DNA of 64,000 nucleotides from Agromyces flavus (GTDB lineage: Bacteria > Actinomycetota > Actinomycetes > Actinomycetales > Microbacteriaceae), in the NCBI RefSeq assembly GCF_900104685.1, contig NZ_LT629755.1, positions 434,001 to 498,000 of the forward strand, read 5' to 3'. Position numbers and translations under genes: made by a program. The notes under the pieces were generated by a model. That model did not search any database, had not been told where the DNA came from, and saw only the letters and a list, made by a program, of their open reading frames with translations. Below, piece by piece: positions 18,900 through 59,815 of this stretch. Each line of letters opens with the position of its first letter. Positions within the stretch are counted from its first letter, which is position 1.

Positions 18900-18972
18900 G
18901 TTTCAGGAGAATGGAGGCTGATCAGGATGAATCCGGCGATCCGGTCCTGAACCGCTTCCGTTCTCCTGAAAC
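18900..18972. repeat. Inverted repeat with 12-bp perfect arms
   Basis: GTTTCAGGAGAA at 18900-18911 is matched by TTCTCCTGAAAC at 18961-18972, with GGA/TCC pairing continuing inward after one mismatch. The 49-nt loop has further short complementary words (ATCCGG/CCGGAT-like). It lies 35 nt after the solA-like stop. Its AT content and form are unlike a simple terminator; it looks like an extragenic palindromic element. Confidence 0.6.
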
Positions 18973-19462: not shown

Positions 19463-19600
19463 CGCGGCCGCCCCCCCGCGCCGCACATCCTCCGGTGACG
19501 AGTACGTGTCATCTGCACCGCTCGGTGCCCCTTGCGGTGCGGATGGCATGCACTCGTCCGCCGTGCGGCCGCGGGCCGCGCCATCCGCCCCGCCCCTGCC

Positions 19601-19664
19601 CGGCGAGGGTATGCGGAATGTCGTCGGACGCCGCTCGCCGGCGTCGTTCGGCATACCCTCGCCG
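19601..19664. repeat. Palindromic repeat family 1, solo copy A
   Basis: CGGCGAGGGTATGC at 19601-19614 is perfectly complementary to GCATACCCTCGCCG at 19651-19664, and weaker pairing continues inward (GGAATGTCG with CGTTCG). The arms share GAGNGTATGCNGAA with two copies at 32457 and 33563. It lies in the 297-bp gap between the sugE-like gene and the XRE operon. It may also terminate the sugE transcript. Confidence 0.75.
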
Positions 19665-19688: not shown

Positions 19689-19742
19689 AGAATGCTTGAC
19701 ACGATGTGCAGAATGATTGACACTGGGCATGTCAAACATTCT
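19689..19742. promoter_or_regulatory. Three-site operator upstream of the XRE operon
   Basis: The 13-mer AGAATGNTTGACA occurs at 19689-19701 and 19710-19722, with a reverse copy TGTCAAACATTCT at 19730-19742. The first two are 21 bp apart (two turns) and the last two form a near-palindrome around CTGGGCA. The region is AT-rich and carries TTGACA words that may double as -35 boxes. It lies just before the gene pair encoding a membrane protein and an XRE regulator, the likely binder. Confidence 0.75.
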
Positions 19743-19759
19743 TCACATCGGAGGTCGGG

Positions 19760-20191
19760 ATGTCGTACGAGGAGAAGGGGACGTGGCTGTACCTGGTCGT
19801 CGCCGTCGTCGGCTACGCCGTGTACCTCTCGCTGGTGCTGCCCCAGGTGACCGGAGGCACTCCGGTCGGCGACGTCGACTACGTGCCGATCATGCTCTGG
19901 ACCATCGGCGGGGCGATCGTCGCGACGATCGTGCTGCGCATCCTGGTCGAGATCGTGTTCCCGAGCGAGAGCACCAAGGGCGACGTGCGCGACAGGGAGA
20001 TCGACCGGCTCGGCACCCGCGTCGGAAGCTCCTTCGTCGTGATCGGCGCGCTCGGGGCGCTGGTGCTCGCCATGCTCGAGGCCGAGTGGTTCTGGATCGC
20101 CAACGTGATCTACCTGTGCTTCGTGCTCTCGGCTCTGCTCGAGAGCATCACGCGGCTCGTCGCCTACCGCAGGGGGGTGCCGGCGTGGTGA
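19760..20191 (+). CDS. Four-segment membrane protein, function unknown
   Basis: A 143-residue protein with four hydrophobic segments (about 9-29, 44-64, 89-107 and 112-130). I do not recognise a named domain, though the pattern resembles membrane proteins paired with YozG-type HTH regulators. GGAGG lies 7-8 nt upstream of the ATG. Its TGA overlaps the GTG of the HTH gene (GTGA) and all four genes 19760-22426 overlap by 4 nt, so they form one operon controlled from the operator at 19689-19742. It may sense or modify the signal for the HTH partner, but that is a guess. Confidence 0.8.
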   Translation: MSYEEKGTWLYLVVAVVGYAVYLSLVLPQVTGGTPVGDVDYVPIMLWTIGGAIVATIVLRILVEIVFPSESTKGDVRDREIDRLGTRVGSSFVVIGALGALVLAMLEAEWFWIANVIYLCFVLSALLESITRLVAYRRGVPAW

Positions 20192-32456: not shown

Positions 32457-32514
32457 CGAGAGTATGCCGAACGTCGCCGAAACCGTTCCGATCCCGACGT
32501 TCGGCATACTCTCG
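32457..32514. repeat. Palindromic repeat family 1, copy B (5' flank of AbiEi/DUF559-like gene)
   Basis: CGAGAGTATGCCGAACGTCG at 32457-32476 is perfectly complementary to 32495-32514, leaving an 18-nt loop. It is the most perfect copy of the family and ends 68 nt before the start of the AbiEi/DUF559-like gene; copy C lies just behind that gene. Confidence 0.9.
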
Positions 32515-32581: not shown

Positions 32582-33541
32582 GTGCGACATCCTCGAGCAC
32601 TGCCGCCCGACCTCCTTTCGCGGCCGGCATTCACCGTGCAGCGCGCCGGACTCGTCGGCGTCCACCCCAGCCGCCTCTCCGCGCCCGACTTGAGGCGCCC
32701 GTTCCACGGCATTCGACAGCACGCGAGCATCGCGGAAGACGCGCGCTCGCGGGCGATGGCGTATGCGGTCGGGATGCCCGCCCGACAGGTCTTCTCGCAT
32801 GTCACGGCCGCACTGCTCTGGGGAATGCCGCTTCCACATCACCTCGAGCGGGACCAGCGGATCCACGTCGGAGTGCCGAGCGGGTCGACGCGATCGCTCG
32901 CCGCAGGAGTGGTCGGCCACGTGATCCAGCCCGAGCGGCTCGGGGTGACCTCGCTCGCAGGCGTACGGGTGAGTTCACCGGCTGATACATGGTGCCAGCT
33001 CGGATCTCTTCTCGGAGAGGACGATCTCGTGGCCGTCGCCGACTTCCTGATCACGGGCGGCGAGCCGAGCGGCCGACATCCGGCGCTGTGCAGTCGGACG
33101 GAATTGGAGGCCGCGCTGAAGCGGCACAAAGGATGTCGCGGTGCGACGCGGCTCCGCGGCGCACTCGAGCTCGTCAGGTACGGCTCGCTGTCGCGCCGCG
33201 AGACGCTCATGCGCTTGGATCTGGGGCGCGCGGGATTGCCCGAGCCGTCACCGAACCACTCGGTCGCGGACGCACTGGGCGCGTTCGTCGCCATGATCGA
33301 CCTCGCATTTCCGGAGTACCGCGTGGGCATCGAATACCAGAGCGATCTCCACCGCGGTCCCGAGCGCTTCAAAGCGGACGTGCGGCGACTCGAACGACTC
33401 CTGGACGAGGGGTGGCTCATCGTGCAGGCGACGTCGGAGGACGTCAGTGCAGACGGACGGCTCCGCGACTCCGCCGCCTTCGCAGCGCGCGTCGCGCGCC
33501 GCCTGGAGAGCCGCGGCTGGCACCCGATCGCACTGCCGTGA
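32582..33541 (+). CDS. AbiEi-like N-terminal / DUF559 (Vsr-like) domain protein, copy 1
   Basis: A 319-residue protein of an actinobacterial multicopy family often labelled type IV toxin-antitoxin AbiEi-like or DUF559. The N-terminal half has AYAVGMPARQVFSHVTAALL, WGMPLPHHL and HVGVPSGSTRSLAAGVVGH; the C-terminal half has the nuclease-fold pattern IDLAFPEYRVGIEYQSDLHR (about 240-259), with Asp and Glu placed as in PD-(D/E)xK/Vsr-like enzymes. No AbiEii toxin gene is adjacent. Codons such as AAA, TTG, CAT and TTT are commoner than in neighbours, suggesting acquisition. GTG 32582 follows a purine-rich AGGGTGGGGG. It is bracketed by family 1 palindromes and is paralogous to the gene at 58753. 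Function unknown. Confidence 0.8.
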   Translation: MRHPRALPPDLLSRPAFTVQRAGLVGVHPSRLSAPDLRRPFHGIRQHASIAEDARSRAMAYAVGMPARQVFSHVTAALLWGMPLPHHLERDQRIHVGVPSGSTRSLAAGVVGHVIQPERLGVTSLAGVRVSSPADTWCQLGSLLGEDDLVAVADFLITGGEPSGRHPALCSRTELEAALKRHKGCRGATRLRGALELVRYGSLSRRETLMRLDLGRAGLPEPSPNHSVADALGAFVAMIDLAFPEYRVGIEYQSDLHRGPERFKADVRRLERLLDEGWLIVQATSEDVSADGRLRDSAAFAARVARRLESRGWHPIALP

Positions 33542-33562: not shown

Positions 33563-33626
33563 CGTCGAGAGTATGCCGAACCACGTTGAACGGTCGCCAT
33601 TCGCGACGATCGGCATACTCTCGACG
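33563..33626. repeat. Palindromic repeat family 1, copy C (3' flank of AbiEi/DUF559-like gene)
   Basis: CGTCGAGAGTATGCCGA at 33563-33579 pairs perfectly with TCGGCATACTCTCGACG at 33610-33626 (17 bp). The core GAGAGTATGCCGAA is identical to copy B. It begins 22 nt after the stop codon of the AbiEi/DUF559-like gene and ends 63 nt before the ABC-F gene. Confidence 0.9.
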
Positions 33627-58441: not shown

Positions 58442-58488
58442 CGAGAAGTCGCGGATGGCTGGTGCGGCGCGCCATCCGTGCCCTCTCG
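58442..58488. repeat. Palindromic repeat family 2, copy 1
   Basis: A 47-bp imperfect palindrome. CGGATGGC at 58452-58459 pairs with GCCATCCG at 58471-58478, and the outer CGAGA with TCTCG; total CGAGAAGTCGCGGATGGC against GCCATCCGTGCCCTCTCG. It lies 44 nt after the hisS stop. Confidence 0.85.
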
Positions 58489-58534
58489 ATCGGAGCCGCG
58501 CGACCCTGTACCCGGTCGCGCCGTCAGCCTTCAT

Positions 58535-58581
58535 CGAGAAGTCGCGGATGGCGGGTGCGACGCGCCATCCGGGACTTCTCG
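58535..58581. repeat. Palindromic repeat family 2, copy 2 (best conserved)
   Basis: CGAGAAGTCGCGGATGGCG at 58535-58553 pairs with CGCCATCCGGGACTTCTCG at 58563-58581 with 18 of 19 matches around a 9-nt loop. This is the clearest copy of the family. Confidence 0.9.
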
Positions 58582-58624
58582 GGGAAACGACTCGACGCTC
58601 TAGGCCGGTCGAGCCGCCACGCTC

Positions 58625-58675
58625 ATCGAGTGGTCGCGGATGGCGGGTGGGACGCGGCATCCGCGACGTTTCGAT
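58625..58675. repeat. Palindromic repeat family 2, copy 3
   Basis: GTCGCGGATG at 58633-58642 pairs perfectly with CATCCGCGAC at 58658-58667; after a short mismatch the outer ATCGA/TCGAT words (58625-58629 and 58671-58675) pair again. It ends 78 nt before the AbiEi/DUF559-like gene. Together with copies 1 and 2 it fills most of the 355-bp gap after hisS. Confidence 0.8.
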
Positions 58676-58752
58676 CGCCCAAGCTCGCCCGACGAACCGC
58701 GGGCTGTGGAGAGCGGCGGCGGCGGCGCCGAGAACGCGGGCAAGGTGGGCGG

Positions 58753-59670
58753 ATGACTCGACGCGCGCCGCTCGCTCCGCACCTGTCCGGAGCGGCGTTC
58801 CGTGTCGGGGATGTCCCGTTCCACGGCGCGACACGCGGTCGGCTGCGCGCGTCCGACCTGCAGCATCCGTTCACCGCCGTCCGTTCGATCGGACTCGACC
58901 TCGACGACGCACTCGGCCGCTGCCTCGCGTACGAGCCGCTCCTCCGGCAGGGCGAGGCGTTCAGCCACGAGACGGCCGCCGCACTGCTGCGGCTTCCGCT
59001 TCCGCACGACTCGAGCACGGTGCACGTGCTCGCGCCGCCCGGCGCGACCCGGGCACGAGGGCGTGGAGTGGTCGGTCACGCCGCATCCGTCGCCCCGCCC
59101 GTCGTGCTGCACGACGGCCTGCCCGTCGTCGCCCCCGCGTACGTCTGGTGCCAGCTCGCGAACGGATCCTCGATGTACGACCTCGTCGCACTCGGCGACG
59201 CCGTCGTCACCGGGCTGCGCCGTGGCGAGATGCGCCTTCCCGCGCTCGCGTCGCTCGACGAACTGCGCGATGCCGCGAGGGGCTGGGGCAGCCGGCGAGG
59301 AGCGGTGACCATCGCTGAGGCGCTGCCGCGCATCCGCGTCGGGGCGGAGTCGCCCAAGGAGACCCACCTGCGACTGATGCTGGTCGATGCAGGGCTGCCC
59401 GAGCCGATGCCGAATCCGCCCGTTCGACTGCCGTCCGGCGCGACGGTGCACCCCGATCTAGCCGACCGCCGACGACGCATCGCCTTCGAGTACCTCGGCG
59501 ATATCCACCGCACCGATCGGCGACGGTGGCAGGACGACCTGCGTCGGCGCCGTGAGCTCACGGCCGCCGGCTGGCACGTCGTGGAGGTCACGGCCGACGA
59601 CCTCACCTGGAATCGAGAGGCCTTCATCGCGGGGGTTCGCGCGCTGCTCGGCGTCTCGGCGCAACCCTGA
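58753..59670 (+). CDS. AbiEi-like N-terminal / DUF559 (Vsr-like) domain protein, copy 2
   Basis: A 305-residue paralogue of the protein at 32582-33541. Shared blocks are AFSHETAALLRLPLPHDSS (compare VFSHVTAALLWGMPLPHH), VHVLAPPGATRARGRGVVGH, VVAPAYVWCQLANGSSMYDL, ETHLRLMLVDAGLPEPMPNP and the nuclease-like VHPDLADRRRRIAFEYLGDI followed by HRTDRRRWQDDLRRRRELTA and GWHVVEVTADDL. Asp and Glu are placed as in PD-(D/E)xK/Vsr-like folds; activity is untested. No toxin partner is encoded. ATG 58753 follows AAGGTGGG. It is bracketed by three upstream and two downstream copies of palindrome family 2. Confidence 0.8.
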   Translation: MTRRAPLAPHLSGAAFRVGDVPFHGATRGRLRASDLQHPFTAVRSIGLDLDDALGRCLAYEPLLRQGEAFSHETAAALLRLPLPHDSSTVHVLAPPGATRARGRGVVGHAASVAPPVVLHDGLPVVAPAYVWCQLANGSSMYDLVALGDAVVTGLRRGEMRLPALASLDELRDAARGWGSRRGAVTIAEALPRIRVGAESPKETHLRLMLVDAGLPEPMPNPPVRLPSGATVHPDLADRRRRIAFEYLGDIHRTDRRRWQDDLRRRRELTAAGWHVVEVTADDLTWNREAFIAGVRALLGVSAQP

Positions 59671-59684
59671 GGCCATGCGTCGAT

Positions 59685-59731
59685 CGAGAGGTCCCGAATG
59701 GCGAGCCGAACCCGCCATCCGCGCCGCCTCG
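59685..59731. repeat. Palindromic repeat family 2, copy 4 (degenerate)
   Basis: CGAGAGGTCCCGAATGGCG at 59685-59703 pairs partly with CGCCATCCGCGCCGCCTCG at 59713-59731. Both arms keep the family length and the CGAGA, AATGGCG and CGCCATCCG words but carry several mismatches. It starts 15 nt after the DUF559-like gene stop. Confidence 0.7.
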
Positions 59732-59768
59732 GGCCGGGCGGATGGCGCCGAACCTCGGACGGACGATT

Positions 59769-59815
59769 CGAGAAGTCGCGAATGCGCGGTGCGCCGCGCC
59801 ATCCGCGACTTCTCG
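59769..59815. repeat. Palindromic repeat family 2, copy 5
   Basis: CGAGAAGTCGCGAATG at 59769-59784 pairs with CATCCGCGACTTCTCG at 59800-59815 (15 of 16 matches). It has the same 47-bp overall length as copies 1, 2 and 4. Confidence 0.88.

Follow-up and report, generated by a model that had tools for sequence, protein, structure and literature searches.

To our knowledge, the HUH RAYT transposases are the only kind of driver known for REP-type repeats. A RAYT (TnpA-REP) gene and its REP or REPIN palindromes together make up a REPtron, as set out in the accessible portions of PMC2817692, PMC3733652 and PMC8266576. RAYT genes are reported always to lie between inverted REPs, to co-evolve with them and to correlate with REP abundance, and REPs usually exceed 100 copies per genome (PMC2817692, available text). 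One large class, the CGTC REPs, is said in the available part of PMC3733652 to be without a dedicated transposase.

Several other proteins are also relevant. Streptococcus agalactiae AbiEi is an autorepressor that acts on its promoter via an inverted repeat with 23-bp arms and an N3 centre, and AbiEi has been likened to Rv2827c (PMC3985639, accessible sections). EDxHD homing endonucleases and Vsr are covered by the portions at hand of PMC3943268, PMC6083498 and PMC11879112; the first of these reports that I-Bth0305I dimerises on a target of nearly 60 bp. The definition of the MTES_1575 family comes from a study of conflict systems (PMC3710099, available part). Among the literature matches listed, from a search that had most subscription journals outside it, there was no report of a nuclease-palindrome partnership such as the one proposed here.

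We analysed a 64,000-nucleotide stretch of the Agromyces flavus genome (the window), in which one gene lies between copies of a 47-bp palindrome, three on its 5' side and two on its 3' side, all re-found in the sequence. The features are:

58442..58488, no strand: upstream palindrome copy 1, 47 bp; agrees with the arms used at 29 of 32 arm positions
58535..58581, no strand: upstream palindrome copy 2, 47 bp, the most perfect; 31 of 32 arm positions, 20 of 23 pairs complementary
58627..58673, no strand: upstream palindrome copy 3, 47 bp; 28 of 32 arm positions
58753..59670, plus strand: family gene, 305 aa, with an AbiEi-like DNA-binding half and a Vsr/MTES_1575 nuclease-fold half
59685..59731, no strand: downstream palindrome copy 4, 47 bp, the most divergent of the five; 26 of 32 arm positions
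59769..59815, no strand: downstream palindrome copy 5, 47 bp; 31 of 32 arm positions

The preliminary description read this locus as a nuclease-palindrome element analogous to RAYT/REP but chemically different. That reading is supported by the sharing of palindromes between flanks, by palindrome sequences that follow the protein clade and by solo copies. Within the window the palindrome arms (at most three mismatches) have ten matches, all inside the five copies, versus 0.85 expected, and none of 100 shuffled windows reached ten. Together with the family-wide controls, this shuffle test excludes coincidence as the source of the flanking palindromes. The five copies are imperfect, with 15 to 20 of 23 position pairs complementary. 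The spacers between the upstream copies (58498-58521 and 58591-58613) each hold an additional short inverted repeat (GCGCGACC..GGTCGCGC; CTCGAC..GTCGAG), and because of these the upstream array is composite and somewhat BIME-like. The adjoining frames are, judging by resemblance, presumably histidyl-tRNA synthetase (hisS) and enolase (eno). Inspection of the neighbouring frames revealed no AbiEii-like gene, in agreement with the earlier statement that the protein has no toxin partner.

The window protein falls below the curated cut-offs of both MTES_1575 (PF18741; 23.2 bits versus 38.2) and DUF559 (PF04480). Across the family, 51 of 54 members match MTES_1575 and 31 of 54 match DUF559 (E <= 0.01), with no other family matched. 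The PADLOC AbiEi profile matches the window protein (E 8.9e-7), and the Pfam AbiEi models do not. An AlphaFold2 model built from the 54 aligned members is confident (pLDDT 95.2, pTM 0.91). Two parts were delimited by inspection:

58753..58902, plus strand: N-terminal winged-helix-like part, about residues 1-50 (AlphaFold2 E14-17, H21-24, H28-31, E37-40, E43-46)
59353..59658, plus strand: C-terminal Vsr-like nuclease-fold domain, about residues 201-302

The best Foldseek match of the whole model, and the sole one at E <= 0.001, is Rv2827c of Mycobacterium tuberculosis (1zel_A, E 8.3e-4). Two Toxoplasma mitoribosome proteins (E 0.006) rank above the I-Bth0305I catalytic domain (3r3p), which is matched with probability 1.00 and TM 0.67-0.77 over the target (0.77 for 3r3p_B) at E 0.039-0.049. 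Vsr (1vsr, weaker) and TnsA stand lower, among other nucleases at E 0.2-0.9, and a profile search of PDB sequences returned nothing at E <= 1. Columns invariant in all 54 aligned members include S200, E203, R207, D235, E246, Y247, G249, D250, H252, R253 and D262, with D235, E246, D250, H252 and D262 in the C-terminal domain. By inspection, E203, D235, H252 and D262 appear to resemble the letters of the EDxHD motif. The Vsr/DUF559-like putative nuclease motif noted at the outset is consistent with the MTES_1575 and DUF559 matches in the family and with the Vsr/I-Bth0305I-like fold of the model.

Family members are widespread, occurring in 18 of 20 genomes (E <= 1e-10), in 68 of 100 genomes of the taxonomic family (E <= 1e-25) and in 189 of 295 genomes of the class (E <= 1e-15), the own genome included each time. 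Their association with palindromes is specific. From 119 loci we retained 109 as a first set (eight partial genes, one short flank and one duplicate were dropped), with 84 genes from 20 random regions and 109 mismatched upstream/downstream pairs as controls. Upstream and downstream flanks share a stretch of score >=20 at 56 of 109 loci, versus none of the mismatched pairs and none of the control genes; at score >=15 the figures are 80 loci, six mismatched pairs and six control genes, leaving 29 of 109 loci with no sharing at that score. Hairpins of score >=15 within 500 bp occur upstream of 51 of 109 loci (1/84 control genes), downstream of 40 (6/84) and on either flank of 63 (6/84); the median for the upstream ones is 60 bp in length. 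In a second set, drawn from another collection, the figures are 33 of 75 versus 2 of 75 mismatched; five of its 80 loci were left out, and one of the 75 (L281, from the genome of L133) is shared with the first set. Two more sets took 34 and 11 of 47 loci read: outside the taxonomic family 21 of 34 share (versus 4/102; two of the 34, both positive, were already in the first set), and further loci inside it gave 9/11 versus 0/33. The link between gene and palindrome is therefore strong and not universal, most but not all loci sharing flanks. Two outcomes that the preliminary description had named as counting against it did not arise: the majority of members elsewhere carry flanking palindromes, and palindromes are not equally common at unrelated genes, none of the 84 controls showing sharing at score >=20. 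Two broken or partial family genes (L062 and L122) keep their palindromes.

Palindrome and protein have diverged together. Where the proteins are >=60% identical, 4 of 9 locus pairs have palindromes that are alike (score >=14); at 50-60% identity this holds for 2 of 64 pairs, and at 30-45% for about 0.2-0.4% of pairs. Orthologues of the window protein are 79, 75, 74, 55 and 53% identical to it. Two of the orthologue loci (L240, L241) have GAGAAGTCGCG-type arms with an altered inner half, a third (L239) has a more diverged form, the A. allii orthologue has GAGAAGTCTCGGATGGCG arms and that of A. cavernae yet another palindrome. The upstream and downstream palindromes of a gene are closer to each other than to the same-position copy in the relative in 15 of 20 syntenic pairs (14/18 without a genome fetched twice); among the exceptions one pair is about equal (L042/L064) and the others are close pairs. 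Of 78 loci, this test used just the 29 at which the palindromes on either side of the gene match each other, a selection that favours same-gene likeness. The covariation of palindrome sequence with protein clade, as originally anticipated, is thus seen in the fall of likeness with protein identity, and the syntenic comparison agrees subject to that selection. Concerted evolution of the palindromes is suggested rather than proven, because loci entered only if their own palindromes match. At one Leifsonia locus (L257) the upstream flank holds a nested palindrome, with CATTCGTGACGAATG units inside a 90-bp hairpin and an apparent tandem copy-number difference to L256.

The A. flavus genome encodes five more full-length relatives of the window protein, 33-41% identical to it. 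Most have their own palindrome on both sides, each of a different sequence; the paralogue at 2884355 has weak palindromes only, with no upstream/downstream sharing at score >=15. One paralogue lies in the window, along with palindromes of its type and of another:

32582..33541 (genome 466582-467541), plus strand: second family gene, start codon uncertain
32457..32514, no strand: its upstream palindrome, 58 bp, CGAGAGTATGCCGAACG type
33563..33626, no strand: its downstream palindrome, CGAGAGTATGCCGAACG type
19601..19664, no strand: solo copy of the palindrome type of gene 32582
18900..18972, no strand: solo palindrome of the type that flanks an AbiEi_4 plus MTES_1575 gene at genome 312182

The palindromes had been described as absent from the rest of the window. 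This holds for the 47-mer sequence itself, but not for its class, since palindromes with other sequences lie at 18900, 19601, 32457 and 33563. Next to the 19601 copy is another solo palindrome (19497-19558, GACGAGTACGTGTCATCTGCACC type), by eye like the flank of a family gene (L084) in the congener G010. A hairpin at 19702-19750 with repeated AGAATG.TTGACA-like motifs, just 5' of a predicted gene at 19760, looks like some regulator's operator rather than an element of this family.

The AbiEi_4 plus MTES_1575 gene belongs to a sister subfamily (L032, genome 310682-313936), its AbiEi_4 match being weak (E 0.0087, below cut-off), and it lies between palindromes with 32-35 bp arms. This locus suggests that the palindrome partnership extends past the family counted here. 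An MTES_1575 domain also occurs within a much longer frame, which we take to be helicase-like, and had no palindrome in the stretch examined, which stops short of the start of the frame.

Palindromes are also dispersed as solo copies, the mapping of which the preliminary description had proposed, and this was seen for the window type, the 32582 type and Microbacterium types. At least 13 further copies of the 47-mer lie at eight other places in the genome (only stretches around arm matches were scanned), at three of them in arrays with an 82-84 bp period; control regions of other genomes, 200 kb in all, contain none. The arm GAGAGTATGCCGAACG of gene 32582 (at most one mismatch) is found 12 times in its own genome, 13 times in a congener with a 73% identical protein and 0-2 times in the other 58 of 60 congeners, the backwards control giving 0 throughout. 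That congener is the only other one among the 60 found to have a 32582 protein at least 70% identical. Each of the 12 solo sites examined in the two genomes forms a hairpin of 58-64 bp, and a site in G010 (protein 60% identical) extends the range to 58-66 bp; four lone-match loci in G005, G012 and G131 have no hairpin. Eight Microbacterium genomes gave 16, 28, 5, 33, 17, 5, 4 and 0 arm matches to the local palindrome type, often in arrays with a 73-bp period; the backwards control gave 0 in seven and 1 in the last, whose home palindrome is of another type. Overall, copy numbers reach tens per genome at most, not hundreds.

Dispersal does not follow the gene strictly. Among the matches listed, the Agromyces relative G002 and G011 have no close intact protein, yet G002 has four window-type copies at three places and G011 has one. 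Two broken family genes of G002 (L099, L102) have no matched palindromes nearby, though the genome keeps its orphan copies. A degenerate window-palindrome pattern applied to 18 genomes is noisy, with 9 to 47 matches per genome versus 2 to 17 backwards. By this loose pattern Agromyces sp. Soil535 (79% identical protein; 20 versus 13) and Marseille-P2726 (75%; 18 versus 10) are near background, and Agromyces sp. H66 stands out (47 versus 9). In A. allii (55% identical protein) a complete listing places paired arms at the home locus only. Such orphan copies, like palindromes confined to the home locus, speak against a strict gene-dispersal rule.

We think that a nuclease-palindrome partnership, working like a REPtron with a different enzyme, is the probable explanation. 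Each protein would bind the palindrome specific to it, about 47-65 bp long, and would probably do so as a dimer with one winged-helix half-site per arm, by analogy with AbiEi. The Vsr/homing-endonuclease-type domain would then cut or nick at the palindrome, and break repair would copy the palindrome to other copies and sites. Such copying could yield the fixed-period tandem arrays, concerted evolution and dispersed solo copies. We infer the dimer on both arms, the cut or nick and the copying repair from the AbiEi repeat geometry, the I-Bth0305I dimer on about 60 bp and the 60-bp median hairpin. The gene would often remain at one chromosomal place and could travel together with its palindromes. 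The stronger proposal, on which we are evenly divided, is that this is a second, independently evolved REP-type mobile repeat, in which an AbiEi-guided protein of Vsr/homing-endonuclease fold copies its own long palindrome through actinobacterial chromosomes, with several non-overlapping systems per genome.

The upstream copies may also allow the protein to repress its own gene, and such regulation is plausible by analogy; self-regulation does not explain the downstream and solo copies. Placement bears on an unlikely alternative, in which the palindromes are operators only, an AbiEi-like regulator represses itself and a regulon, and the nuclease-fold domain is dead or accessory with no driven spread. 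Self-repression by S. agalactiae AbiEi via a repeat of the same geometry (PMC3985639, accessible sections) is consistent with this, as is the position of upstream hairpins (score >=15), which stop 54-174 bp short of the estimated start codon (10th-90th percentile, n=88). Downstream copies, however, begin just past the stop (median 19.5 bp, n=62), and solo copies also sit at gene 3' ends, which is not where operators belong. Among 43 distinct sites away from home, 26 are between convergent genes, 12 tandem, 5 inside predicted frames and 0 divergent, versus 13 convergent, 64 tandem and 20 divergent among 97 background gaps. Gene calls here were made by codon-position G+C, and the background was 20 regions of other genomes. 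The 43 sites are 71 rows less 13 home sites, seven of the nine T1 sites, which had a hairpin score of 0, and eight repeats of one site. Dropping these T1 sites was over-strict, 47-mers being present at some of them, and the filter was unequal in that 11 Microbacterium sites with score 0 were retained. The Fisher p (1e-9) is too small, because the background was taken from other genomes and the Microbacterium sites come from related ones. The tandem arrays and the invariance of D235, E246 and H252 in 54/54 members likewise argue against operators alone.

Palindromes differ in presence between related genomes. Site A, between two convergent genes, spans 988 bp in Microbacterium G168 (L349 1322-2309) and 12 bp in two others. 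In G168 it consists of two alternating palindrome types, AGATGGAAAGCGCT and AGATGG(A/G)TTTCGT, with four copies of each and other short tandem repeats among them. Three genomes have site B filled and two have it empty; one of the filled and one of the empty genomes share about 94% identity at the home locus. Site D is filled in two and empty in two, with G166 outside the alignment. Site C was left out of the count because its alignment was too poor, and in a first empty-site comparison between Agromyces species the intergenic DNA was too diverged. Sites A, B and D alone do not separate gain from loss, and no target-site duplication or exact insertion boundary was readable at the sites compared.

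A role in addiction or defence seems improbable to us; there the nuclease would be a toxin, the palindromes a sink, decoy or antitoxin template, and dispersal a by-product. AbiEi-type profiles do belong to a defence library (the PADLOC matches), and MTES_1575 comes from the conflict-systems paper (PMC3710099, available part). Against this, the inspected window locus has no AbiEii-like neighbour, and many family genes stay put, 78 of 184 loci being syntenic with another locus of the set. The same chromosomal places are used through Agromyces, Leifsonia and Microbacterium. Across 22 pairs that we chose, dN/dS is 0.12-0.49, and in 20 of them the family protein is less conserved than its median neighbour. 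These comparisons point to a gene that often keeps its place and changes quickly while under purifying selection.

The same synteny of 78 of 184 members weighs against a plain mobile cassette, a very doubtful reading in which an element inserts whole, with the palindromes as its terminal repeats, and the solo copies are excision scars. Solo units, moreover, are single or regularly spaced palindromes and outnumber cassettes. The case in its favour comes from Agromyces sp. H66, whose orthologue, with four palindromes before it and one after, lies between two genes that neighbour each other in A. flavus, with a gap of 113 bp. The H66 protein falls in a fully supported clade (100/100), the other three members of which are at hisS-eno, where the A. 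flavus gene sits. This phylogeny and gene order clearly indicate one relocation of gene and palindromes together, into a site that is empty in A. flavus. Plasmid or phage cargo was rejected, with only three weak Arthrobacter plasmid matches and one weak phage match. The weakest reading, that these are ordinary intergenic hairpins or terminators, enriched next to the family genes since both favour long intergenic gaps, is hardly credible and already largely contradicted: the 3'-end position is like that of terminators, but the sequences are locus-specific, common to both flanks and track the protein, and ordinary terminators and known RNAs are ruled out by a consensus scan that found no terminator-like site at the window locus and by Rfam, which has no family for the palindromes (best E 0.016, 26.8 bits versus a cut-off of 80).

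If the nuclease-palindrome partnership is real, REP-type repeats would have a second driver of unrelated chemistry, implying convergence on nuclease-palindrome systems. It would account for palindromes scattered through the genomes of a class to which many bacteria of industrial and medical interest belong, and would suggest a function for DUF559/MTES_1575-type genes. The presence of several pairs of different specificity per genome makes the partnership directly testable. As one genome could run several non-overlapping specificities, the family would also be a natural set of proteins and targets for winged-helix re-targeting of a nuclease.

Among known systems, homing endonucleases and Vsr resemble the family in the fold of the C-terminal domain, and the I-Bth0305I target is about the size of the palindromes. 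Unlike a homing endonuclease gene, the window gene is outside any intron or intein and lies between, not inside, its presumed targets; its DNA-binding part is AbiEi-like and its cleavage putative. The MTES_1575 and DUF559 REase families are likened to it by the matches of 51/54 and 31/54 members, and differ in that a palindrome partnership is not described in the available part of PMC3710099. The family resembles AbiEi in profile and fold over its N-terminal and middle portions (Rv2827c, 1zel) and in having a long inverted repeat before the gene, whose N3 centre and 23-bp arms are the geometry of the window copies. It differs in the extra C-terminal nuclease-fold domain and in palindromes that are also downstream and dispersed, and because no AbiEii toxin gene was seen the window locus is not an AbiE system.

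The family is also not a RAYT, because it has neither the HUH transposase nor the GT(A/G)G head. Specifically, the enzyme is AbiEi-like plus Vsr-fold rather than an HUH tyrosine transposase, none of the 54 members matches Transposase_17 (E <= 0.01), and on inspection none of the five window copies has a GT(A/G)G head at its outer ends; family hairpins show a weak CGAG preference (55/150 versus 14.8% background). The palindromes are about 47-65 bp and number tens of copies rather than the usual REP figure of over 100, and the hosts are Actinomycetes, whose genomes have several paralogues with a separate palindrome for each. The likeness to a REPtron lies instead in a gene flanked on both sides by cognate palindromes (here at a majority of loci, not all), in palindromes that co-evolve with the gene and are dispersed where it is present (with G002, G011, Soil535, Marseille-P2726 and A. 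allii as exceptions), in regular arrays, and in a fast-evolving, often stationary gene.
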